DNA from: Neelides folsomi | Lineage: Eukaryota > Arthropoda > Collembola > Neelipleona > Neelidae | Direction: 5' to 3' | DNA length: 64,000 nucleotides | NCBI GenBank assembly: GCA_034687125.1 | Contig: JAQGBZ010000023.1 | Location: forward strand, 62,001 to 126,000 | Part shown: positions 2 to 36,122 of the stretch, piece by piece | Position numbering within the stretch: the stretch's first letter is position 1 | Layout of the letters: each line of letters starts with the position of its first letter | The notes under the pieces: model-generated | Database searches by the model: none | Told to the model about the DNA's origin: nothing | What the model saw: only the letters and a program-made list of their open reading frames with translations | Translations under genes and position numbers: made by a program

Positions 2-1257
2 GTACGAGAGAAGGACCCCACGGAAGATCCGACCATTGCTGCCAAAATGGGTTTATTTGGGAAGTTGACGCACCGTGTTCACGAGTGGCATCCAGATCGG
101 ATCCTCTGCAAGCGGTTTAATGTCCCCATGCCTTATCCAGAGTAATTGACCTTTTATGAATTATAATTACGACAATGTGATTTGATTCCTTATCAAATAA
201 AATTTACTTTTACAGCATTATTAATTACGTTCCCTGATATAACATGAAATCAATTCTAAATATCTTTCTTATTGTTAGATCTAAAATAGTTGGAGTTGTG
301 ATAGTGGGAACGCAGAAAGATTCAGGATCAAACACACTCGCAGAGCCTTCAAGTTCCACACCTGAACCCAATGCAGCCTCTGGTCAACTTGGTCCGCCCA
401 AGGGATTAGACCCCGAAAAGAAGAAATCATTATTTGATAACATCGACTTTTCTAAACCCCCTCCTGGACTTCAACCAATTGACCATCACTCAACTTCTAC
501 CGCAACCCCTGTCGCTCTGGACGAACCACCCGAATCTTCAGAACCGATGGAAATATCCTCTCCTCCACGACTGCCTATGGACCTCTTCAAAGAAATATTC
601 GCTGACACTTCCTCAGAAGAAGAGGAAGAAATTGTGAAAAATGTAATTACCATCCCCGAACCCCGAAAGAGGAATTTCATTCATCCTCATCCTACTAGCA
701 AAGACCCAAGGGACTCCGCCTCATCCAAACCTCCTTTAAACGATATAGACAATTCCCTTGAAGGGAAATCGAGTGTCGTTAAAGGGATATTTGACAAGTT
801 GGATTTCTCAAAACTGAACATGGTCCACCACCCATCAAATGATACAATACAAAAAGACTCAAGTTTACCACAAGTTGCTTCAATTCCAGTTGAAGAAGAG
901 GATTTCTACGGTCCGAAGAGACCAAACTTCCCAATTTCTCATTCTATTCCTAAACCATTAGATCCCCAGAGTTCGCGTACCAGCCAGAAAACAGAGTCCT
1001 TAATAGTTAGACAGCCAGATGATGTCATTTGGGTCGAGAAAGAAACTGTAAGCAAAAAAGAGAAAGGCAAAAAGCATAGTAAAAAATCCAAAAAGTCAAA
1101 GAAGAAAGAGAAAAAGAAGAAAAAGAAAAGTAGTAAGAATAGGAATGATAATGAAACCAGCGAATCTAATTCTGACTCGGATGACGATATTCCCGTTGTA
1201 CTCAATGCCAACAATAAGGCTCTCATACAAAAACTCAAAGAAATGACACGAAGGTAA
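2..1257 (+). CDS. GPATCH1: GPATCH1 C-terminal part (5' end outside window)
   Basis: Two exons are visible, 2-141 and 279-1257, joined by a GT-AG intron with the split codon GA|A. The first reads ...VHEWHPDRILCKRFNVPMPYP, matching the conserved 'W.PS.LLCKRFN.P.PYP' block of G-patch domain protein 1. The second reads ESKIVGVVIVGTQK..., then a conserved PMDLFKEIFADTSSEEEE motif, and ends in a lysine-rich tail (KKSKKSKKKEKKKKKKSS) followed by a short acidic stretch, as GPATCH1 proteins end. GPATCH1 is a spliceosome-associated nuclear protein; the G-patch itself lies upstream of the window. The stop codon (1255-1257) is only about 23 bp from the poly(A) signal of the convergent snoRNA host gene. 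An ATG at 244 is intronic and is not the start. Confidence 0.88.
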
Positions 1258-1408
1258 TTCAAGTCAAATTATTCAGTTTTTTATTCAACGAAAGAGAAAG
1301 GGGTTCGTATCCAAATGATCAGCTCTCCGCCGGATGGATATTCCTGCAATTAATAAGTATATATTTGTTAAAACTGTTAAGGTTAATTGTTTAATTTATA
1401 ATTAATAA

Positions 1409-1481
1409 TTTTGTCAGATAATAAAAACCAATCGTCATAGCCAAATCGGACTGGGGCGGAACAATTTATTCATCATTTAAA
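1409..1481 (-). ncRNA. U31-like C/D-box snoRNA, copy 1
   Basis: On the minus strand, box C ATGATGA (1470-1476) and box D CTGA (1414-1417). Between them is CCGCCCCAGT directly before a degenerate D' (CCGA). This antisense pairs with 28S ACTGGGGCGG, and the fifth nucleotide upstream of D' points to the G equivalent to human 28S Gm4166, the U31 target. It sits in the intron between exons 1517-1584 and 1258-1343. Confidence 0.82.
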
Positions 1482-1647
1482 TAAACAATATTTCAATAAA
1501 ACAAAATCTCATTTACCATTATTTAAATCTGTCCAAGTCCTAGCAGCAGATTGTACCATCCCATCATCAAAGCATGATTCTTCACTGTAAAACAAAGGAC
1601 AAATTAAAATCAGATAGAAAAGATAAATATAAATTAAATAGAGGAAG

Positions 1648-1723
1648 GGGTTCAGTCATAAATATGATCTTCAACGCAAGTAATTGCTCTGTCATATGCT
1701 TGTCATGTCTAACATCATTGATA
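1648..1723 (-). ncRNA. U27-like C/D-box snoRNA, copy 1
   Basis: Minus strand: box C ATGATGT (1712-1718), box D CTGA (1652-1655), D' CAGA (1688-1691). The antisense GACAAGCATATGA before D' is complementary to the 5' end of 18S rRNA (TCATATGCTTGTC). The fifth-nucleotide rule selects the A equivalent to human 18S Am27, the U27 target. A second conserved stretch (TTGCGTTGAAGATCATA) lies near box D and could be a second guide of unknown target. Confidence 0.83.
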
Positions 1724-1910
1724 AATAACTTAAATAGTTAATATTTAAAAATTCTTAGATTAAGATTTGATTTTTAAAAACTTACAGTTAGAATAAAAAG
1801 TGATTTTCGTTCCTTTACAGCTTAAAGAGTCCAACTAAAACAATATATAAAAACTTTAATTAATGACATTAAAATGATATCACTAGTATTGATAGAAAGT
1901 TTTAGTTATT

Positions 1911-2095
1911 GAAATTGTTCAGACAAATGCCTCGTTGTAATCACAAGGGTTCAAATAATTTTTACATTAATCAGTTAAATGTGAAACAAATTCAAAATGA
2001 ATATAAATCATTCTTACAAGAAAATATCACTTAACAAATTCACACAAAAGAATTTTAAACCTCATTCTCGTCATCGAATCATCATTATAATTTAA
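1911..2095 (-). ncRNA. U15-like C/D-box snoRNA, copy 1
   Basis: Minus strand: box C ATGATGA (2079-2085), box D CTGA (1919-1922). The antisense ACGAGGCATTTGT directly before D pairs with 28S CAAATGCCTCGT, selecting the A equivalent to human 28S Am3764, the U15 target. The roughly 165-nt C-to-D length also resembles the unusually long U15 (about 146 nt in human). A short terminal stem (AAATTRTA/ACAATTT) brackets the boxes. The internal sequence has diverged slightly from copy 2. Confidence 0.82.
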
Positions 2096-2460
2096 ATAAC
2101 TCAAAATGTTTAATTTTTTAATCATAACCAATACATCACTTACCCAAAAGTTATGTGGTTGATCTCCTTCACAAAAAGCTCTAGTTTCCTTAAATTCTTC
2201 TGATTTTGAAACTGCGGAAGTAATTCACGAATCAAACTCATCCAGAGACTGGTAAGCTGAAAATATTATTTGATGTTAAATAAATACGATCTCGGCTCAT
2301 CAAATTAGAGCATGGAAAAATTGAAAGACATGACATGCAAGACAAAATATGCCAATAAAAGTTTGCAAAGATTCCAAATAAAACAATATATCTGAATAAT
2401 ACTGATAAAGGCTATTAAAGCCATTGAAATTCTATTTAAAACAAAATTGAATGAGTTATT

Positions 2461-2646
2461 AAAATTGTTCAGACAAATGCCTCGTTGTAATCACAAGGGT
2501 TCAAATAATTTTTACATCAATTAGTTAAATGTGAATCATGTTCAAAATGAGTGCAAATCATTCTTACAAGAAAATATCACTTTTAACAAATTCGCACAAA
2601 ATAATTTAAACCTCATTCTCGTCATCGAATCATCATTACAATTTTT
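2461..2646 (-). ncRNA. U15-like C/D-box snoRNA, copy 2
   Basis: Minus strand: box C ATGATGA (2630-2636), box D CTGA (2469-2472), terminal stem AAAATTGT/ACAATTTT, and the same 28S antisense ACGAGGCATTTGT before D. It lies in the intron between exons 2691-2774 and 2144-2256. The next intron also carries a U15 copy, so two adjacent introns hold the same guide. Confidence 0.82.
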
Positions 2647-2846
2647 AACTCAGAATGTCCAATTAACCATCCTTCAGAAATATCACTTACCAAAGGTTTA
2701 TTGATGATTCTCTCAAATTCTTCCGCTGGAACTGTGAAATTAGTCCACGGCGCAGTCATCCAGAGACAGGTAAACTGAAAAGTTATTGAAATGCTAAATA
2801 CAATGCAATCCCATTTCATCAAAATTTAGTATGGGTAAATATCTAG

Positions 2847-2951
2847 AAAGACAAGACTTGTCAGACAATACATTGGTTGGATTGTAGGGAACAATATTTC
2901 TTCATTGTTTATCAAAGCGAGCTGAGTGGATCATCATTGTCAAGTCTTTCT
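2847..2951 (-). ncRNA. U29-like C/D-box snoRNA, copy 1
   Basis: Minus strand: box C ATGATGA (2931-2937), box D CTGA (2861-2864), and a strong terminal stem AAGACTTG/CAAGTCTT. CTCAGCTCGCT precedes a D'-like TTGA and pairs (with G-U wobbles) to 28S GTGAGCTGGG, selecting the A equivalent to human 28S Am4493, the U29 target. Further blocks GTTCCCTA and CAATCCAAC are complementary to 28S sequence just upstream of that site. Confidence 0.72.
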
Positions 2952-3127
2952 CATAATATAAGTGTGGTATTAAATAAAAACGCCAAGTTGGCACTTACAA
3001 TTATTTTAATGTCAGTATTGATATACATATTCAACCCTCAATTCTTTATCGATTACTTCAGCCCTGCAATGAATAAATAAAGTTATTATTAAAGCTGTTA
3101 AAACTATTGTTTAATTTAGCGTTAACG

Positions 3128-3199
3128 TTTTATCAGAATATAAAACCAATCGTCATGACCAAGTCGGACTGGGGCGGAACAATTTATTCATCATTTTAA
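3128..3199 (-). ncRNA. U31-like C/D-box snoRNA, copy 2
   Basis: Minus strand: box C ATGATGA (3188-3194), box D CTGA (3133-3136), and the antisense CCGCCCCAGT before CCGA as in copy 1. It lies in the intron upstream of the last U31-type exon repeat. In this repeat unit no U27 copy is recognisable between the U15 and U31 introns. Confidence 0.8.
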
Positions 3200-3393
3200 A
3201 TTAACCAATAATTCAAAATATAAAAAATCATATTTACCATAATATAGGGCATAGATGTAAACAAGTTGAAAAACACAAAAGCCAAATGTTTTCAACGTTG
3301 ACCTTTAATCTATAATTAAACCATATTAAATTAACTAATAATAATCAATACACTTTGAGACTTAACTAAAATTGAAAATTTATTTATTTATTT

Positions 3394-3583
3394 AAAATTG
3401 TATCAGGCAAATGCCTCATTGTAATCACAAGGGTTCAAATCATTTTTACATCAATTCATATAACAGCGAAACAAATTAAAAATGAGTGCAAATCATTTCA
3501 ACATCAAATTATCACTAATTAACGAATTCGCCCAAAATGATTTTAAACCTCATTCTCGTCATCGAATCATCATTTACAATTTT
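3394..3583 (-). ncRNA. U15-like C/D-box snoRNA, copy 3 (most diverged)
   Basis: Minus strand: box C ATGATGA (3567-3573), box D CTGA (3403-3406). The antisense reads ATGAGGCATTTGC before D. The GAGGCATTTG core complementary to 28S is intact, but the flanking C to T and T to G changes differ from the other copies. Terminal stem AATTGTA/TACAATTTT is preserved. Confidence 0.76.
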
Positions 3584-3801
3584 AACCCCTTAAATATATC
3601 TTATTATCACCCATAAAATAAATAGAATTACCAACGGCGTGTGATGAAATTAATCCAGCAAAATTTCCAAGTTGTGCATCACATCTTTTCCGTCGATCGG
3701 TTCAGGATATGCTGGTCTTATTTCACCCGACCTAATAAAATGGAAAGATCTTTTTATTCCCTTTCAAGGATACTCAATTCCTTTCATGAACAATGAAATT
3801 G

Positions 3802-3880
3802 TATTCCTCAGTTTTTATGCGATATGACTTGTAATCATGTTATTTCATACGAACGAGACTGTTTTTACATCATAGGAATA
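3802..3880 (-). ncRNA. U30-like C/D-box snoRNA (single copy)
   Basis: Found in the one intron (3732-4204) lacking a repeated snoRNA. Minus strand: box C ATGATGT (3867-3873), box D CTGA (3808-3811), terminal stem TATTCC/GGAATA. AGTCTCGTTCGT lies before a D'-like ATGA and is perfectly complementary to 18S ACGAACGAGACT. The fifth-nucleotide rule selects the A equivalent to human 18S Am1383, a U30 target. The element before box D (ATATCGCATAAAAA) has no target I recognise. Confidence 0.75.
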
Positions 3881-4397
3881 CTCAACGAAGTGTCACATTT
3901 AAGAACTTCAAACCAACGAAACTTTCAATCAATATCAATTTTATTTAATGCTTTATATTATATATTATCTATTGAAGTAACTCAAGCTAGCTAATAAAAT
4001 ATATTCTTGTCAAATCTAACCCTAAGTTATAAGAAAAATAAGAATATAGATGAAAACTTTTTTTAAACGAATGTTGCTTCATTTTCTATAAGAATCAACA
4101 CTCATTGTAGCGGAATGGTAAGGAAAAGAACTCAAAACTCGGAAAGCTAAAATAGCTCCAAATAAAAAATGTTTCCTTCTAACATCTTCATCAATGCCAC
4201 TTACTCTAACAATAAGTCTAGCGGTTCTCCGGCACAAATGAAACGCCATTTTCTCCGCTCTTCATTATTCTTTCGGATGCCAATGGGAATGCCTTTCACG
4301 AAACAGTCATCCAGAGACATGCTGCTGAAAAATTATTGGAAGTGTTTAATTTAAATATCAATTCATCAATTGGCAAATATGGGTGAATACTATAGTA

Positions 4398-4503
4398 GAA
4401 AGACAAGACTTGTCAGACAATACATTGGTTGGATTGTAGGGAACAATATTTCTTCATTGTTAATCAAAGCGAGCTGAGTGGATCATCATTGTCAAGTCTT
4501 TTT
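4398..4503 (-). ncRNA. U29-like C/D-box snoRNA, copy 2
   Basis: Minus strand: box C ATGATGA (4483-4489), box D CTGA (4413-4416), terminal stem AAGACTTG/CAAGTCTT. Nearly identical to the copies at 2847 and 5545 over the whole transcript, including the three 28S-complementary blocks. The flanking intron sequence is not conserved, so the snoRNA itself is under constraint or recently duplicated. Confidence 0.74.
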
Positions 4504-4677
4504 AAGAGATTACAATATGGCAGGATTAAATAAAAATTACTTACAAAGGTTTGTGATCGATGGCCGATGGAGTCCTCAATTAAAAATCGGTCAATCCATT
4601 TCTGTAATTAATAAATCAATTTTTATTAAATGAGTAAACTGTAAAACTTATTGTTAGTGTTTAAAATTAATTATTTA

Positions 4678-4749
4678 ATTTTTCAGATAATAAAAACCAA
4701 TCGTCATAACCAATCGGACTGGGGCGGAACAATTTATTCATCATTAAAA
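4678..4749 (-). ncRNA. U31-like C/D-box snoRNA, copy 3
   Basis: Minus strand: box C ATGATGA (4738-4744), box D CTGA (4683-4686), antisense CCGCCCCAGT before CCGA, pairing with 28S ACTGGGGCGG around the equivalent of human Gm4166. It lies in the intron between exons 4786-4843 and 4545-4601. Confidence 0.82.
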
Positions 4750-4907
4750 TAAATAAAAATTTCAATACAAAAAAATTATGATTACCATCTTTCATCTGCT
4801 CAAGTCCTCGCAGCTGATCGAGCCATAAAAGCACAATTTTTCACTTTAAAACATAGGTCAAATTAAATCAGATAGTAATGATAAATAATAAATAAAACGG
4901 AGGAAAT

Positions 4908-4981
4908 GTCTCAGCGATAAAATGATCTTCAACGCAAGTAATTGCTCTGCTATATGCTTGTCATGTCTAACATCATTGATA
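4908..4981 (-). ncRNA. U27-like C/D-box snoRNA, copy 2
   Basis: Minus strand: box C ATGATGT (4970-4976), box D CTGA (4911-4914), D' CAGA. The antisense is GACAAGCATATAG, so the 18S duplex is two pairs shorter at the D' end than in copy 1 (GACAAGCATATGA), while the methylation-selecting nucleotide is unchanged. The stretch near box D is conserved with copy 1. Confidence 0.8.
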
Positions 4982-5154
4982 AATAACTTAAATAGTTAAT
5001 ATTTAAAAATTCTTACCGTAAGTATTAGAATTGTTATCCGCTCTCTTAGAACTTTCAAAGACTCCAACTAAAAACAATATATAAAATCTGAAATGATTGA
5101 TAAAGACATTAAAATACTATGTATATTTAATGTTCATATAACAAAATAGTTATA

Positions 5155-5340
5155 AAAATTGTTCAGACAAATGCCTCGTTGTAATCACAAGGGTTCAAAT
5201 AATTTTTACATCAATTTGTTAAATGTGAAACAAGTTCAAAATGAGTGCAAATCATTCTTACATAAAAATATCACTTTTAACAAATTCGCACAAAATGATT
5301 TTAAACCTCATTCTCGTCATCGAATCATCATTACAATTTT
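5155..5340 (-). ncRNA. U15-like C/D-box snoRNA, copy 4
   Basis: Minus strand: box C ATGATGA (5325-5331), box D CTGA (5163-5166), perfect terminal stem AAAATTGTA/ACAATTTT, and the 28S antisense ACGAGGCATTTGT before D. An ATG-initiated plus-strand reading frame over this stretch is an antisense artefact of the snoRNA. Confidence 0.84.
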
Positions 5341-5544
5341 AATAACTCAAAATGTATGATTTTTATAGCATCTTCCAATCAATATTTACCTAAAGTTTCG
5401 TGGTGGATCTCTCTTAAATTCCCCTGCTGCATCTTGGAAAGTAATCCATAAAAAGTCATGCAGAGTCGGTAGGCTGCAAAAGTTTAAAAGTTAAATAAAA
5501 TGCAATATCCCCGCAGGTCAAATAGAAGTATGGGTAAATATCTA

Positions 5545-5650
5545 GAAAGACAAGACTTGTCAGACAATACATTGGTTGGATTGTAGGGAACAATATTTCT
5601 TCATTGTTAATCAAAGCGAGCTGAGTGGATCATCATTGTCATGTCTTTCT
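5545..5650 (-). ncRNA. U29-like C/D-box snoRNA, copy 3 (first intron)
   Basis: Minus strand: box C ATGATGA (5630-5636), box D CTGA (5560-5563), terminal stem AAGAC(A)TG/CAAGTCTT with one mismatch relative to the other copies. It lies in the first intron of the host gene, between the 5'TOP exon and exon 5390-5473. Confidence 0.73.
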
Positions 5651-5792
5651 TATTCATAGTAAATGTGGTTTGATAACCGGAAAATGGACAAAAACGCCAG
5701 TCCAAACTAAAATTATTTGAGAGGGAGAAAAAGCTTTTACTGACCTTCAAACTTTCCATTTTTCTTTCTCTCCTTTGTTGACCGGAAAGAAG

Positions 5793-8700
5793 TTTCGACC
5801 ATTGACAAGAATGATTGAATGAAAGATATAAAAGAAGAAAACAACGAGATGATCATGAAAATGAACTTCTAAGACAAACTTCCGACGCCTTCAGGAATTT
5901 CCACTCTTCATTTCTCAAGTTGAAATTGAATAAGACGTCACTTCATTTCAAACACATTTCTCCTAACAAAGCACACAAATTGGTATTCACATTTCGAATT
6001 CACTACGCATAAATAATATTTTGAATGGTCGTTATTTCGCAATTCGTTTCAATTTCAACATTCTTCCAAACTTTACCAAATTCAATATTGGTTGAATAAA
6101 TAAAATCTCAATTTGATTTTGAAAACTTTAATAACATTAAAGGAAATAATCCAAAAATTCACTATATGTATTAAAAAATATGAAATTCTTAAAATTAAAA
6201 AAAAATCTGGATATTTTTAATATAAAAAATCAATTGCTCTATAATACGCATAAATATAATATCATATCTTTAATATTGGTACTGAATCGTCTCAGACATT
6301 AAAGTGTTTCGTCAGAGCTTCGCTAGGCCAGGGATAACTTATTTCATCATAGATCGATTCAGAACCCTTGGTTAAAAAACTTGAGCCAAACAACACGATT
6401 ATTAAAAGGATGCAAAGTTTTACAACTTTACAAAACTAGTGTAGGATTTAAAGGATTAAATTAAATTTTAACTCACCGATTTTTTATCCTTCTCTCGTTA
6501 TATTATTTCCATCCTGATCCCGTGGAACTTTTATGCGTTCGGACTCACAAGGTATCGTTCAAATTTCTTTTGCACAATGCAACACGTGATCACACGTAAC
6601 AACGCTTACATACTATAAATACAAGTCTAGCTTGTGATCGCGAATCTATTTAAAACAACTAAAATGGGAACTCCATTGATTCTGATCCTATTTATAAACA
6701 CGTATTGTATATCTCATCGTCTAATTTCTTCTAAAGAGAGCATCGCACAGACTCTCTGCATTCTCATTAGTAAGAAAAAGGCCCGTCTAGTCTATCTGCA
6801 AATGAATAAAAAATTATTGATTAATTTCATGAATTAAATATAAGTTAGATTATTTTAAGGTATATATACTCTAGTTGAAGTTAAAAATACATAAGGTTGC
6901 TTTCCTCGTTAGAGGTTAAATCAATAAATGGACAAATTCCCATATAATAATTAATAATAATTTTCCCATATAAAAAAACGGCTTCGTCGAAATGTTTCTC
7001 ATCAGGGCAAATAAATAAACTCCTCTGTCATGAATGTCATTTTTTTAATATCATAACTTCGTAGCTAATAAAAATTCCCCGCCGCCCACATAGCTACCAT
7101 TCTTATTTAATAACAATAACTTCAATGATCCTAACTTTAATAACAATAATAAATATTAAACAGCCAAGATATGAACAAACTAAAGAGTTATTCTGACATA
7201 CATACATTATAGTAGTACAAATGGTCTCAAATCGTTAATAATAAAAGTTTTGAAATTCAAACAATCCTCATCCAAATTAGAAAAATATGATTGAAAAGGA
7301 AGAAACTTCTCTTTGAGTCAAGTGAGAGGTAAAGAGAGAACTTGGTCTATACATAATAATTTAAAAGGTCTTTTATAACGAATAAACCAACAACTCATTT
7401 GACAAAAGAACAACCAACTCACAAACAAAAGTTTCTTCCAACAGTACAATTAAATAAACTTAACTTACCAAATTATTTAATCATATAAACTTTTCCCTAT
7501 TTCTATTTGTTTTCGCTCAACAACTAACATGACATATTTATTATAGTAAAGTATTTGTAAATACCATATAACATACAAGTAAATATTTCTTCACTTGTTA
7601 TGTAATGGAAATAATTCAAAACCATTTATTGTAAGTACTGATAGTTGCTAGTTTTATTGAATTTACAATTCCTTATAATCGTTTAAAATCTGTGAAAGTT
7701 AAGAAATTTAAGGCAAGCCAAGAACTATCCCAATAAATAATACCTTCTTATACAAAATCATTCGTAATTAAATATCCAATTAGTAATTGCATTGCAACAT
7801 ACAATATTTCAACCAACGAAATTCATGATAAATTTTATAAATAAAGATGTTCCTGGAAGAACCAAGAAAGCTTCCTGATCTAACAAATAAAAGGATACTC
7901 ATCCTCGCCAACTCTCAGAGAAAGACTCCGTTTCTAAGAACCTCCCTTTACCACGGGTAATCCCCAAAAGTCATTTCAAAAACTAAGAACAGCTTCCTTA
8001 AAATCAAATCTTTAATAAATCAAATCTTACATTTAGACCTCAAACTCCAACGCTTTAATATTAAATATCCATCAAAGTCTCAGAAGCCAGGCACCTTTAC
8101 ATTTACAGTGTTGGATACACAAAAGTACAACCAATCTTTATCTCCACTATCAAATTTAAGAACATTAAGTAAATGTAAACCCATTTCCAAATTGTCTTTA
8201 TAAAAATATTAATAAAAAAAGTTCATAAAAACAAAATCAGCTCAAATGTTCAAATTAAACAAAATTGACTTTTTGGCACAAAAGGTCAATTTTATTTTAT
8301 TCTTAACCTTATTATTTCTTGCAGACCATCGACCACTTTTAGTTTTATGAGTCGGAATAAAGCTCATTATCTCTTCCAAATGAGACTCGGCCTATATTTA
8401 TGAATTTATCTCTCTCTAACTAGGAAACATTTCCACTTCCGTACCTTTTTAATGAGAACATTCAAAAGTCATAAACCTCAAATACTCAAATTTCAACTCC
8501 CCTCGTTGCTGAAGACTCTTCCTTATAACGTTTCTCATCGTAGCGTCATTCTCAAAAGGAGAACGTTACGTTGCTATTAAATCCTCCCGCCGTCTCTTTA
8601 AACTCTTCATAAAAGATGAACAAGCCTCTTTCATATCTCATAAAGCAGTCGCGAAATCCGCGTGTCCTAAGACATACTTTAAAACACTTCAAAGGAATCA

Positions 8701-32586: not shown

Positions 32587-35500
32587 ATGGCTGCGATTAG
32601 GGTTTCTAATAAATTATTGCGTCAAAATTTAGGGATGAAACTGTCAAGTAAGTTTTCCTCACTTCAATACTTGTACTTTGGACTATGCCCGTTACATACT
32701 TCAACTTAATGCTGTTTATAAGATCAAACTATAATGAATATTTTAAGTTAATAATTTGAAATTTTATGAAATAGTTAACAGATTCCTGTCACTCTCAAGA
32801 CTCTCTATGGCCAGCCAAAGAAAACACATTGATCTTAAAATTAGGAATAGTGTAGCTGTTGTTAAAATTGACTCTCCGAACTCGAAGGTTTTTATTTAAA
32901 AATATTGCTATTATTTTTGACTATCGCCATATTGGATTGTATGTAAATTAACATGTTTGTTCATAATGTTAATTAGGTCAACGTGCTCAATGATGAATTT
33001 ATGGAAGAAGTTATTTCTGTGTTGAATGAAGTCCAGACCAATTCCAATGTGGCTGCAGCAGTTCTTATTTCGGGGAAACCAGGTTGTTTCATTGCCGGTG
33101 CTGACATCACAATGCTTGAAAAATGTAAAACAGTCGCTGAAGGAATTCAGAAATCCAGAGATGGTCAAAGAGTACTCGACGACATCGAAAATTCCAGAAA
33201 ACCAATTGTTGCTGCAATTCAAGGCTCATGTCTCGGAGGCGGTTTGGAGGTGATCCTTTTGACCATATCAAAGATATTATATTTTAATAATTAATTTGAA
33301 TTCTCTTAATATAACAACGAATTTTTAAACAGGTTGCAATGGCGTGTCATTATAGATTAGCCTTAAAGGATAAGAAAACTGGTTTTGGTCTTCCTGAAGT
33401 TATGCTCGGCTTATTACCTGGTGCTGGCGGAACTCAAAGGCTACCTAAGCTAATCGGAGTTCCAAGTGCTCTTGACATGATGCTCACGGGAAGAACAATT
33501 AAAGCCGATCGAGCAAAAAAGATGGGTCTTGTTGATCAACTTGTCGATCCTCTTGGCCCTGGAGTAAAATCTGCTGATGAAATGTAATTTAAATTATTGA
33601 GCCATTGAATCTATATATTTTATAAGATGGTATTTATATAAAATATTGATCAATTGGAAATAAAACAAATTCTATTTTTATTTAGGACGTTCGATTATCT
33701 AGAAAATGTTGCAATTCAATTGGCCGAAAATCTTGCAAAGGGAACATTGAAGCCAACAAGGAATAAGTCGCTAATGGAAAATCTTACAAACATGGCTCTT
33801 TCCATCGGTTTCGTGAAAGACAAAGTATTTGAAAAGGCAAAGGGTCAAGTGATGAAGCAATCCAAAGGCCTTTATCCATCTCCGTTAAAGATTTTGGAAG
33901 TTGTTCGTACTGGACTTGACAAAGGTTCACATGCTGGTTTCGAAGCTGAAGCTACTGGCTTTGGACAACTCGTCAAAACACCCGAGTCTCAAGGACTCAT
34001 TTCTCTCTTCCATGGGCAGACCGAATGCAAAAAGAATAGTTTTGGAAAACCTGAAAGAGCAACAAAGTAAAGATAGTTAACCATTCAATAAATTATCTTA
34101 ATTATTAAATATTAGCACCTTGTAGACCTTTTATAGCTTTTTAGTAGCTATTATTAGGGGGAAAAGAGTGCTGAAATTAATAAATTCATTGACGATTTTA
34201 AAGATAATTTTTTAATTGTTTTTTCTGTTGAAGAATTTAACATTTTTATGAATGATAAATAGGCTGATTTATTTTATTTTGACTTTAAAGCTAAAATGGT
34301 ATATGAATTTGATTGTTAGAAATATCGGAGTGCTAGGAGCTGGATTAATGGGAGCAGGAATCGTACAAGTGTCAATAGACAAAGGATACAATGTCATCTT
34401 GAAGGACGCTACAGAAAAGGGTTTGGCAAGAGGTCATAATCAAATACAAAAAGGAATTGACGCGGCCGTGAAAAGGAAAAAGATGACCAGAGCTGAAGGT
34501 GATCGTTTGATGTCTGGTTTGGCCATTCAACTAGATTATAAAAACTTTGAAAAATGCGACATGATCATTGAAGCTGTTTTTGAAGATTTGGCTTTAAAAC
34601 ACAGGTTTGAAGTTTAATTAAATTAAACCAAAATTGGTGTTTTTTTAAAGTACAAGTAATTTATAAGTGTAAAAAGAAATTAATCGAATTGAAATTTTAT
34701 CAGAGTAATCAAAGAAATTGAATCAGTCATTCCTGATCATTGCATCTTTGCTTCCAACACGAGTGCTCTTCCAATCACGAAGATCGCTGCAGTATCAAAA
34801 CGACCGGAAAAAGTTATTGGGATGCACTACTTTAGTCCTGTTGATAAAATGCAACTCCTTGAAATTATCACAACCCCGAAGACTTCAAAGGACACAATTG
34901 CTTCAGCAGTTCAAGTGTGTTCAAATCATAAGCCACTAAAATTATTATGCACTTAATTACATAATAACGTTTATATAAAATTACAAATAATTTCCCAAAC
35001 TAATTATCTTTTTCAATTTTAAACAGGTCGGTTTGAAACAAGGAAAAGTTGTTATTACTGTAAAAGACGGTCCGGGATTTTACACCACACGAATTTTGGC
35101 CCCAATGATGAGCGAGGTTGTTAGATTACTACAGGTATGAAAATAATGTTTAAATAAATTATTAGATTAAACTGAAAACAAAAAAATGATTAGTTCTAAT
35201 TTAACAATTTAACTACAGGAAGGAGTCGATCCGAAAGATTTGGATAAATATACGACACAGTTTGGATTCCCTGTTGGAGCTTGCACTCTTATGGATGAAG
35301 TTGGTATTGACGTTGCAACTCACATTGCCGTTGATTTGTCACAAGCGTTTGGCGAAAGATTTGCTGGTGGAGATGCCGGACTTATGGAAGAAATGGTGCG
35401 CTGTGGGAACTTAGGTACAATTTATAGCAATTAATCAATTAAAATAGGTATTGGGCAATAGACATTTTAATAAAATATTATAAAATTAAACTAGAATATA

Positions 35501-36122
35501 TGGTAGTCAAAATAATCATTTTTAAAACGAATATTAGGACGTAAATCTGGGAAAGGAGTTTTCGTCTATGAAAAGGATTCAAAGGAACGTCCAGTAAATC
35601 CCAGTGCACGGGATATCCTCACCAAATTCAAACTTGCTCCTAAAGGATCTCTTGCTGTCGAAGACATTCAACTTCGCCTCGTGACAAGATTTGTCAACGA
35701 AGCCGCTTTATGCCTCCAAGAAGGAATTCTCTCCAATCCGGTAAAAATAACCATTTAAGAATAATCATATAAGTAATTAATTTATTGATAACTAATAATA
35801 ATTCTAATAAATGGTTAAAGGTTAAGAAAGAGATTGTTTAGCTTAAAACATTGATTAAGTTGCTAATTTAACACAATTTTGATAAAAACCATAACATTTT
35901 TCGTTATTTTAGTTGGAAGGAGACGTTGGAGCAGTTTTCGGTCTTGGATTTCCGCCATTCACAGGAGGGCCGTTCCATTGGGTCGACCGATACGGAGCAA
36001 ACAAATTGATCAAGAAAATGGGAGAGTATGAGTCAAATTATGGATCAGCCTTTGCTCCTTGTCAACTACTCATTGACCATGCAAATGACCCATCCAAAAA
36101 GTTTTTCCCGACCTCACATTAA
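32587..36122 (+). CDS. HADHA: Trifunctional enzyme subunit alpha (enoyl-CoA hydratase / 3-hydroxyacyl-CoA dehydrogenase)
   Basis: Eleven exons: 32587-32647, 32775-32887, 32977-33249, 33333-33583, 33686-34066, 34320-34604, 34704-34914, 35027-35134, 35219-35414, 35538-35740, 35913-36122, giving 763 aa, the same length as I recall for human HADHA. A basic, acid-poor mitochondrial leader ([19 protein letters not shown]) precedes a hydratase domain with oxyanion loop [22 protein letters not shown] and [20 protein letters not shown] (catalytic Glu regions). Then comes an NAD-binding Rossmann motif, [12 protein letters not shown], followed by [10 protein letters not shown], the dehydrogenase catalytic-His block [16 protein letters not shown], and the C-terminal [20 protein letters not shown]-type motif. 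It catalyses two steps of long-chain fatty-acid beta-oxidation with the beta subunit in mitochondria. No key residue is missing. Confidence 0.96.

Follow-up and report, generated by a model that had tools for sequence, protein, structure and literature searches.

The vertebrate U22 host gene (UHG, or SNHG1) hosts the small nucleolar RNAs (snoRNAs) U22 and U25-U31, has a terminal oligopyrimidine (TOP) motif and yields an RNA that is removed by decay, as described in PMC7277114. For Drosophila, PMC4430873 reports seven Uhg genes without recognizable open reading frames (ORFs), including Uhg1 with 16 snoRNAs, and five methylation sites that are targeted only by Uhg1 snoRNAs. According to PMC2653536, no non-coding snoRNA host had been identified in C. 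elegans, and for a springtail genome PMC5644144 lists nine snoRNA families at 17 loci, of which 13 are of the C/D type. Here we describe a predicted snoRNA host gene in the springtail Neelides folsomi, located on the minus strand at positions 1258-5792 of a 64,000-nt stretch of contig JAQGBZ010000023.1 of assembly GCA_034687125.1 (C23:62001-126000), which is referred to as the window and provides all positions given below unless stated otherwise. The locus resembles the vertebrate UHG in being apparently non-coding, in carrying one C/D snoRNA per intron and in containing U27, U29, U30 and U31, but differs from it by the number of 13 snoRNAs with repeated families and by the addition of U15. 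Drosophila Uhg1 carries U27, U29, U31 and U76; the springtail locus is similar to it in providing many snoRNAs for few sites, and hence repeated families, with one snoRNA per intron, and is unlike it in the presence of U15 and U30. A previous interpretation of the same DNA, in the following called the sequence-only reading, had regarded UHG as so far a vertebrate cluster, a view that is out of date, as flies have been shown to possess non-coding Uhg genes.

Based on the boxes, the predicted introns with their spacing, the guides and the duplication that are present in the DNA, the locus is very probably a real and well-formed UHG-type host gene, which RNA polymerase II would transcribe into a non-coding RNA. 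The 13 minus-strand C/D snoRNAs that the sequence-only reading had placed one to an intron were all found, and the features of the locus are compiled in the following table, in which both ends of the host transcript are those of that reading.

Features of the predicted snoRNA host gene and its upstream region (snoRNAs from C box to D box)
Feature	Position	Strand	Predicted intron	Remark
Predicted snoRNA host transcript	1258..5792	-		14 predicted exons, 48-120 nt; spliced length 1055 nt
U29 copy a	5560..5636	-	5744-5474	
U15 copy a	5163..5331	-	5389-5068	
U27 copy a	4911..4976	-	5016-4844	
U31 copy a	4683..4744	-	4785-4602	
U29 copy b	4413..4489	-	4544-4325	
U30	3808..3873	-	4204-3732	sixth intron; assigned by guide AGTCTCGTTCGT before D' ATGA
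U15 copy b	3403..3573	-	3631-3310	
U31 copy b	3133..3194	-	3237-3064	
U29 copy c	2861..2937	-	2998-2775	
U15 copy c	2469..2636	-	2690-2257	spacing outlier, D box 212 nt before 3' splice site
U15 copy d	1919..2085	-	2143-1835	
U27 copy b	1652..1718	-	1785-1585	
U31 copy c	1414..1476	-	1516-1344	
Candidate TCT/TOP-like start	5789	-		C of YYCTTTYY, motif match
AATAAA poly(A) signal	1280..1285	-		last exon, motif match
snR38-like C/D snoRNA	6292..6350	-		8-bp terminal stem; about 500 nt upstream of the start given by the sequence-only reading

The 13 introns (173-473 nt) were chosen by eye at GT-AG, so that their GT-AG ends are given by construction, and the spacing of the D boxes was computed afterwards. 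The distance from the end of the D box to the 3' splice site amounts to 67-95 nt in 12 of the 13 introns, intron 10 being the outlier, and the distance on the side of the 5' splice site is variable (40-331 nt). A preferred distance to the 3' splice site is a known signature of splicing-coupled C/D assembly. Intron 10 has a length of 434 nt and seems by eye to contain what is left of a lost exon; an extra exon with a 3' splice site near 2393 would restore the normal spacing and was rejected, as no good following 5' splice site was seen by eye.

A C box of the form ATGATGA or ATGATGT and the D box CTGA are present in each of the 13 snoRNAs. The terminal stems claimed by the sequence-only reading are clear, with 7-8 contiguous bp beside the assigned D box, in seven snoRNAs (U15a, U31a, U29b, U30, U15b, U29c and U15c), but comprise 3-5 bp in U15d, U31b, U31c and U29a and 1-2 bp in U27a and U27b. 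The search for C/D units with a terminal stem yielded nine such units on the minus strand of the region 1258-6480, whose plus strand has none, and one in the rest of the window. Dinucleotide shuffles (n = 200) gave a mean of 0.155 and a maximum of two; with a stricter stem score, eight units were obtained versus 0.055 per shuffle. Of the nine stemmed units, one is the snR38-like snoRNA and eight belong to the 13 snoRNAs of the cluster, with U31c qualifying only through another, more distant CTGA.

The five families U15, U27, U29, U30 and U31 named by the sequence-only reading were supported, twelve snoRNAs by matches to the family models below the gathering score, with U15 and U30 depending on their guides. 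Permissive Rfam scans were needed because the gathering threshold gave no snoRNA. The scan of positions 1000-7500 with expectation values (E) up to 5 listed 35 matches, six overlapping matches of the same clan being left out. Three minus-strand sites were matched by SNORD31 (32.4-35.3 bits, E 3.6e-5 to 2.6e-4; all three below the gathering score of 40), two by SNORD27 (35.1 and 24.4 bits, E 0.0027 and 1.1; gathering score 52), three by SNORD29 (27.5-29.6 bits, E 0.009-0.03; gathering score 48) and four by SNORD15 (16.2-22.6 bits, E 0.1-3.9; gathering score 75), the scores of these last three models likewise being below gathering. The snoRNA in the sixth intron was weakly matched by several C/D models, among them snoU30 (RF01283; 19.4 bits, E 0.4) and, with better scores, SNORD24 (22.6 bits, E 0.16) and snoZ196 (21.2 bits). 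Most of the remaining matches of the permissive scan are other C/D models on the same places. According to guide and model, the three U31 copies are U31-like, and the assignments of U15 and U30 depend on the guides rather than on model scores. The stretch AGTCTCGTTCGT is what we take to be the U30 guide, with 18S A1383 presumably its target.

The rRNA pairing partners available for comparison were two 28S pieces of other eukaryotes. One of them (L007), obtained from genome contigs, is filed under a cyanobacterial metagenome-assembled genome and consists of eukaryotic 28S sequence at both ends (Rfam LSU) with, by eye, an R2-like retrotransposon between them; the other (L008) is an IMG/VR contig of which positions 1-361 are eukaryotic 28S sequence. 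The latter resulted from one of the rRNA words, including an 18S piece, that were sought in viral contigs and mostly gave no match there; four further word matches in viral contigs were dropped as not being rRNA by Rfam. In the assembly of the springtail itself, 5.8S and two conserved 28S pieces found no match, an empty result that in the absence of a positive control shows nothing; the rDNA of the organism is probably missing from the assembly.

Ahead of the D box, all four U15 copies carry ACGAGGCATTTG, which in copy b reads ATGAGGCATTTG and forms one G-U pair; ahead of D' they carry GATGACGAG, and these guides of 12 and 9 nt pair with adjacent overlapping stretches of L007. With the register set by eye, the target bases are an A and a G, seven positions apart. 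The same spacing separates Am2281 and Gm2288 in yeast and the two U15 sites of Arabidopsis; Gm2288 is served by snR75 in yeast and Gm2278 by U15 in Arabidopsis, and a human entry for the G site is not listed in Table 1 of the same source (PMC8817022). The springtail U15 accordingly resembles a double guide, in which the D guide would be directed to 28S A3764 and the D' guide to the G seven bases further on.

The U29 guide ACTCAGCTCGC pairs with GTGAGCTGGGT in L008 over 11 nt including two G-U pairs, and the fifth-nucleotide rule, applied by eye, points to the A in this pairing. Additionally, U29 carries GTTCCCTA and ACAATCCAAC, both complementary to the 28S sequence that immediately precedes the target. 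In the alignment with the Dictyostelium model DdR11, which presumably corresponds to CD11, UUGUUCCUUA is placed opposite the U29 stretch GTTCCCTA. For the site equivalent to that of U29, CD11 is the listed Dictyostelium snoRNA (PMC8817022). In a first test of the extra pairing, the value was reached by 169 of 3000 shuffles and was not significant, the two blocks sharing one base; in a second, post hoc test that allowed the one-base overlap, it was reached by 8 of 20000 shuffles and by 0 of 170 and 1 of 981 control segments. The extra pairing of U29 is a lead that looks like the accessory pairing known from other snoRNAs and would not be new in kind.

The human sites equivalent to these targets are 18S A27 for U27, 28S A3764 for U15, G4166 for U31 and A4493 for U29 (PMC8817022 Table 1). 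Of the human targets put forward by the sequence-only reading, A27, A4493 and G4166 can be found in that table, whereas A1383 is absent from it and remains presumptive.

The order of the snoRNAs from 5' to 3' is 29-15-27-31-29-30-15-31-29-15-15-27-31, corresponding to four copies of U15, three each of U29 and U31, two of U27 and one of U30. The identity between C and D box among copies is 76-77 of 77 positions in U29, 57-61 of 61-62 in U31, 62 of 66 in U27 and 143-162 of 166-169 in U15, and the flanks and exons between copies have mostly diverged, a kept 5' flank being seen in U27 (32 of 33 aligned positions). The exons following U29 (2, 6, 10 and 11) are similar beyond all 200 shuffles in five of six pairs, the exception being exon 2 with exon 6, and the same holds for the pairs 3-12 and 4-13; the similarity of the pairs 3-8, 8-12, 5-9, 5-14 and 9-14 did not exceed that of all shuffles. 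Because of the exon similarities among the copies, it is most likely that a block 29-15-27-31 was duplicated and that pieces were subsequently lost.

The following scheme would account for the organization of the locus. RNA polymerase II would transcribe the minus strand and the transcript would be spliced, each of the 13 lariat introns then undergoing debranching and trimming that leave a single box C/D snoRNP. The snoRNP would direct fibrillarin to the rRNA nucleotide that pairs with the guide at its fifth position ahead of D' or D, with 18S A27 (U27), 28S A3764 (D guide of U15), A4493 (U29), G4166 (U31) and presumably 18S A1383 (U30) as the sites indicated by guide identity. Tandem duplication of the U29-U15-U27-U31 block would have raised the copy number, and the spliced host RNA would be removed by decay. 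The TOP start, the splicing and the non-coding status of the host gene are predictions. A 5'TOP-like start, as proposed by the sequence-only reading, was not confirmed by the match at 5789, because the motif YYCTTTYY is common in the window: it occurs 137 times on both strands, and the 1757 nt that precede the first 5' splice site contain it at 5789 and 7298.

The genome-wide scans covered the assembly of 75.1 Mb in 840 contigs, and the profile search scores the best candidates only, so that weak copies elsewhere may be missed. The cluster copies are the top three of the seven SNORD31 matches listed (E 9.8e-5 to 7.1e-4; the next 0.65) and ranked first (E 0.007) and fifth (E 3.0) of the 14 SNORD27 matches listed. 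A U29 DNA query gave three matches, all in the cluster, and the U15 guide with D box, GAGGCATTTGYCTGA, occurs four times in the genome, all in the cluster, with no occurrence of the reversed-pattern control. The whole cluster as DNA query matched itself only, although such a long query may miss short pieces. A U31-like guide on another contig (C158, E 1.19) was discarded, since by eye it has no good C box. A possible third U27 unlinked to the cluster was detected on the minus strand of contig C207 (L032, positions 3904-3961; E 0.195), with boxes and guide present, the C box at 3961, a normal distance of 73 nt from the end of the D box to the 3' splice site and no clear stem. By eye, this candidate lies in an intron of an apparent protein-coding gene, with a RING gene similar to Anapc11 located upstream. 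Of the UHG families U22, U25, U26 and U28, the genome-wide search covered SNORD25, which gave three matches (E 1.65-5.7), none of them with the U25 guide. Two U3 snoRNA genes exceeded the Rfam cut-off (C123:131813-132013 and C393:27353-27552).

Several observations weigh against this interpretation of the locus as a UHG-type host gene. Six of the 13 snoRNAs lack a clear terminal stem beside the boxes, U27 being the worst case, and at gathering score the whole window yielded a single tRNA and no snoRNA. The pairings of 18S and of U31 are provisional and based on generally known rRNA sequence, because the assembly did not yield the rRNA of the organism itself. With regard to common ancestry, none of the 35 matches listed by the permissive scan belongs to U22, U25, U26 or U28, and guide snoRNAs may move, as the candidate third U27 within a different gene suggests. 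Finally, a peptide product is still conceivable because the spliced RNA contains an ATG ORF of 79 aa.

The common ancestry of the host gene proposed by the sequence-only reading is favoured, though not proven, by the sharing of four families with the vertebrate UHG. The alternative is that the host is of the UHG type and real but that its overlap with the vertebrate gene is convergent, mobile snoRNAs having gathered by chance in a broadly expressed host. The locations of snoRNAs drift over eukaryote evolution (PMC3511168), and the unlinked U27 candidate, the presence of U15 from outside the UHG set and the four UHG families not seen in the cluster would be in line with such a process. Against it, the probability that four or more of five families belong to the eight-member UHG set by chance is approximately 4e-5 to 2e-4, a value that assumes 80-120 families and ignores the selection of the finding, and flies possess Uhg genes as well. 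Since the sharing of four families is unlikely by chance, a linkage inherited from a common ancestor is preferred, at about even odds or slightly better, and convergence is less likely.

In a further alternative, the introns holding the snoRNAs would belong to a protein-coding gene whose product is short or evolves rapidly. The longest ATG ORF of the spliced 1055-nt RNA, the one of 79 aa, spans exons 9-12, and its length was reached by 3.6% of 500 mononucleotide shuffles, which leaves some room for this view. It is opposed by the first ORF, which has only 10 codons, by the alignments of the homologous-looking exons 2, 6, 10 and 11, which contain 4 to 41 gap columns (end gaps counted), and by the comparisons of exons 5, 8, 9 and 14 with their expected partners, which are not beyond all shuffles; a coding host is quite improbable. 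That the cluster consists of chance matches or dead repeats instead of working snoRNAs, as might be suspected from scores that are all below Rfam gathering and from the weak stems, is highly improbable in view of the shuffle control, the conserved interior from C to D between diverged flanks, the uniform spacing to the 3' splice sites and the best or sole genome matches of U31, U29 and the U15 guide in the cluster.

The sequence-only reading had omitted the snR38-like C/D snoRNA upstream of the predicted host transcript. The snoR38 model matched positions 6285-6359 with 35.3 bits, under the gathering score of 45, and found one match in the genome. This snoRNA carries the guide AGTTATCCCTG and, by eye, a degenerate D' box CCTA; the human site of the snR38 family is 28S Gm4362 (PMC8817022 Table 1). 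A candidate 5' splice site is located nearby at 6476, and the nearest 3' splice sites would result in a spacing of 49 or 126 nt. On the other side of the host gene, a plus-strand gene in tail-to-tail orientation ends at 1254 and reads like what we take to be GPATCH1, although Pfam showed no match to its last exon. Elsewhere in the window, 32587-36122 encodes a spliced HADHA protein (763 residues). Among the 120 listed of 7993 database matches to this protein, an unnamed protein ranked first with 72%, followed by two proteins of the springtail Orchesella and one of a damselfly, all with 68%; as a single gene this is slender evidence, in which an arthropod origin is secure and a springtail origin likely.

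The UHG-type host gene with common ancestry of its linkage leads to a history to which we assign an even chance: U27, U29, U30 and U31 would have shared one non-coding host since before the split of arthropods and vertebrates, U15, possibly still a double guide as in plants, would have joined in this arthropod lineage, and the block would have been amplified there. If the fly Uhg1 set given above is right, how old the linkage is had in part been established before; among the literature titles listed, none concerned the present linkage, which is not claimed here as unpublished. The amplification of the block may raise the dose of guides for five rRNA sites. If the proposed history is true, UHG would be among the oldest stable non-coding gene linkages and would depart from the drift that snoRNA locations otherwise show; an old linkage would also mean that something keeps the guides together, contrary to the constrained-drift model (PMC3511168). 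The four families, including U30, that are common to the arthropod host and the vertebrate UHG make the age of the gene testable in other invertebrate genomes. The springtail gene appears as an arthropod member of the already known UHG type and has a reasonable chance of informing how old UHG is.

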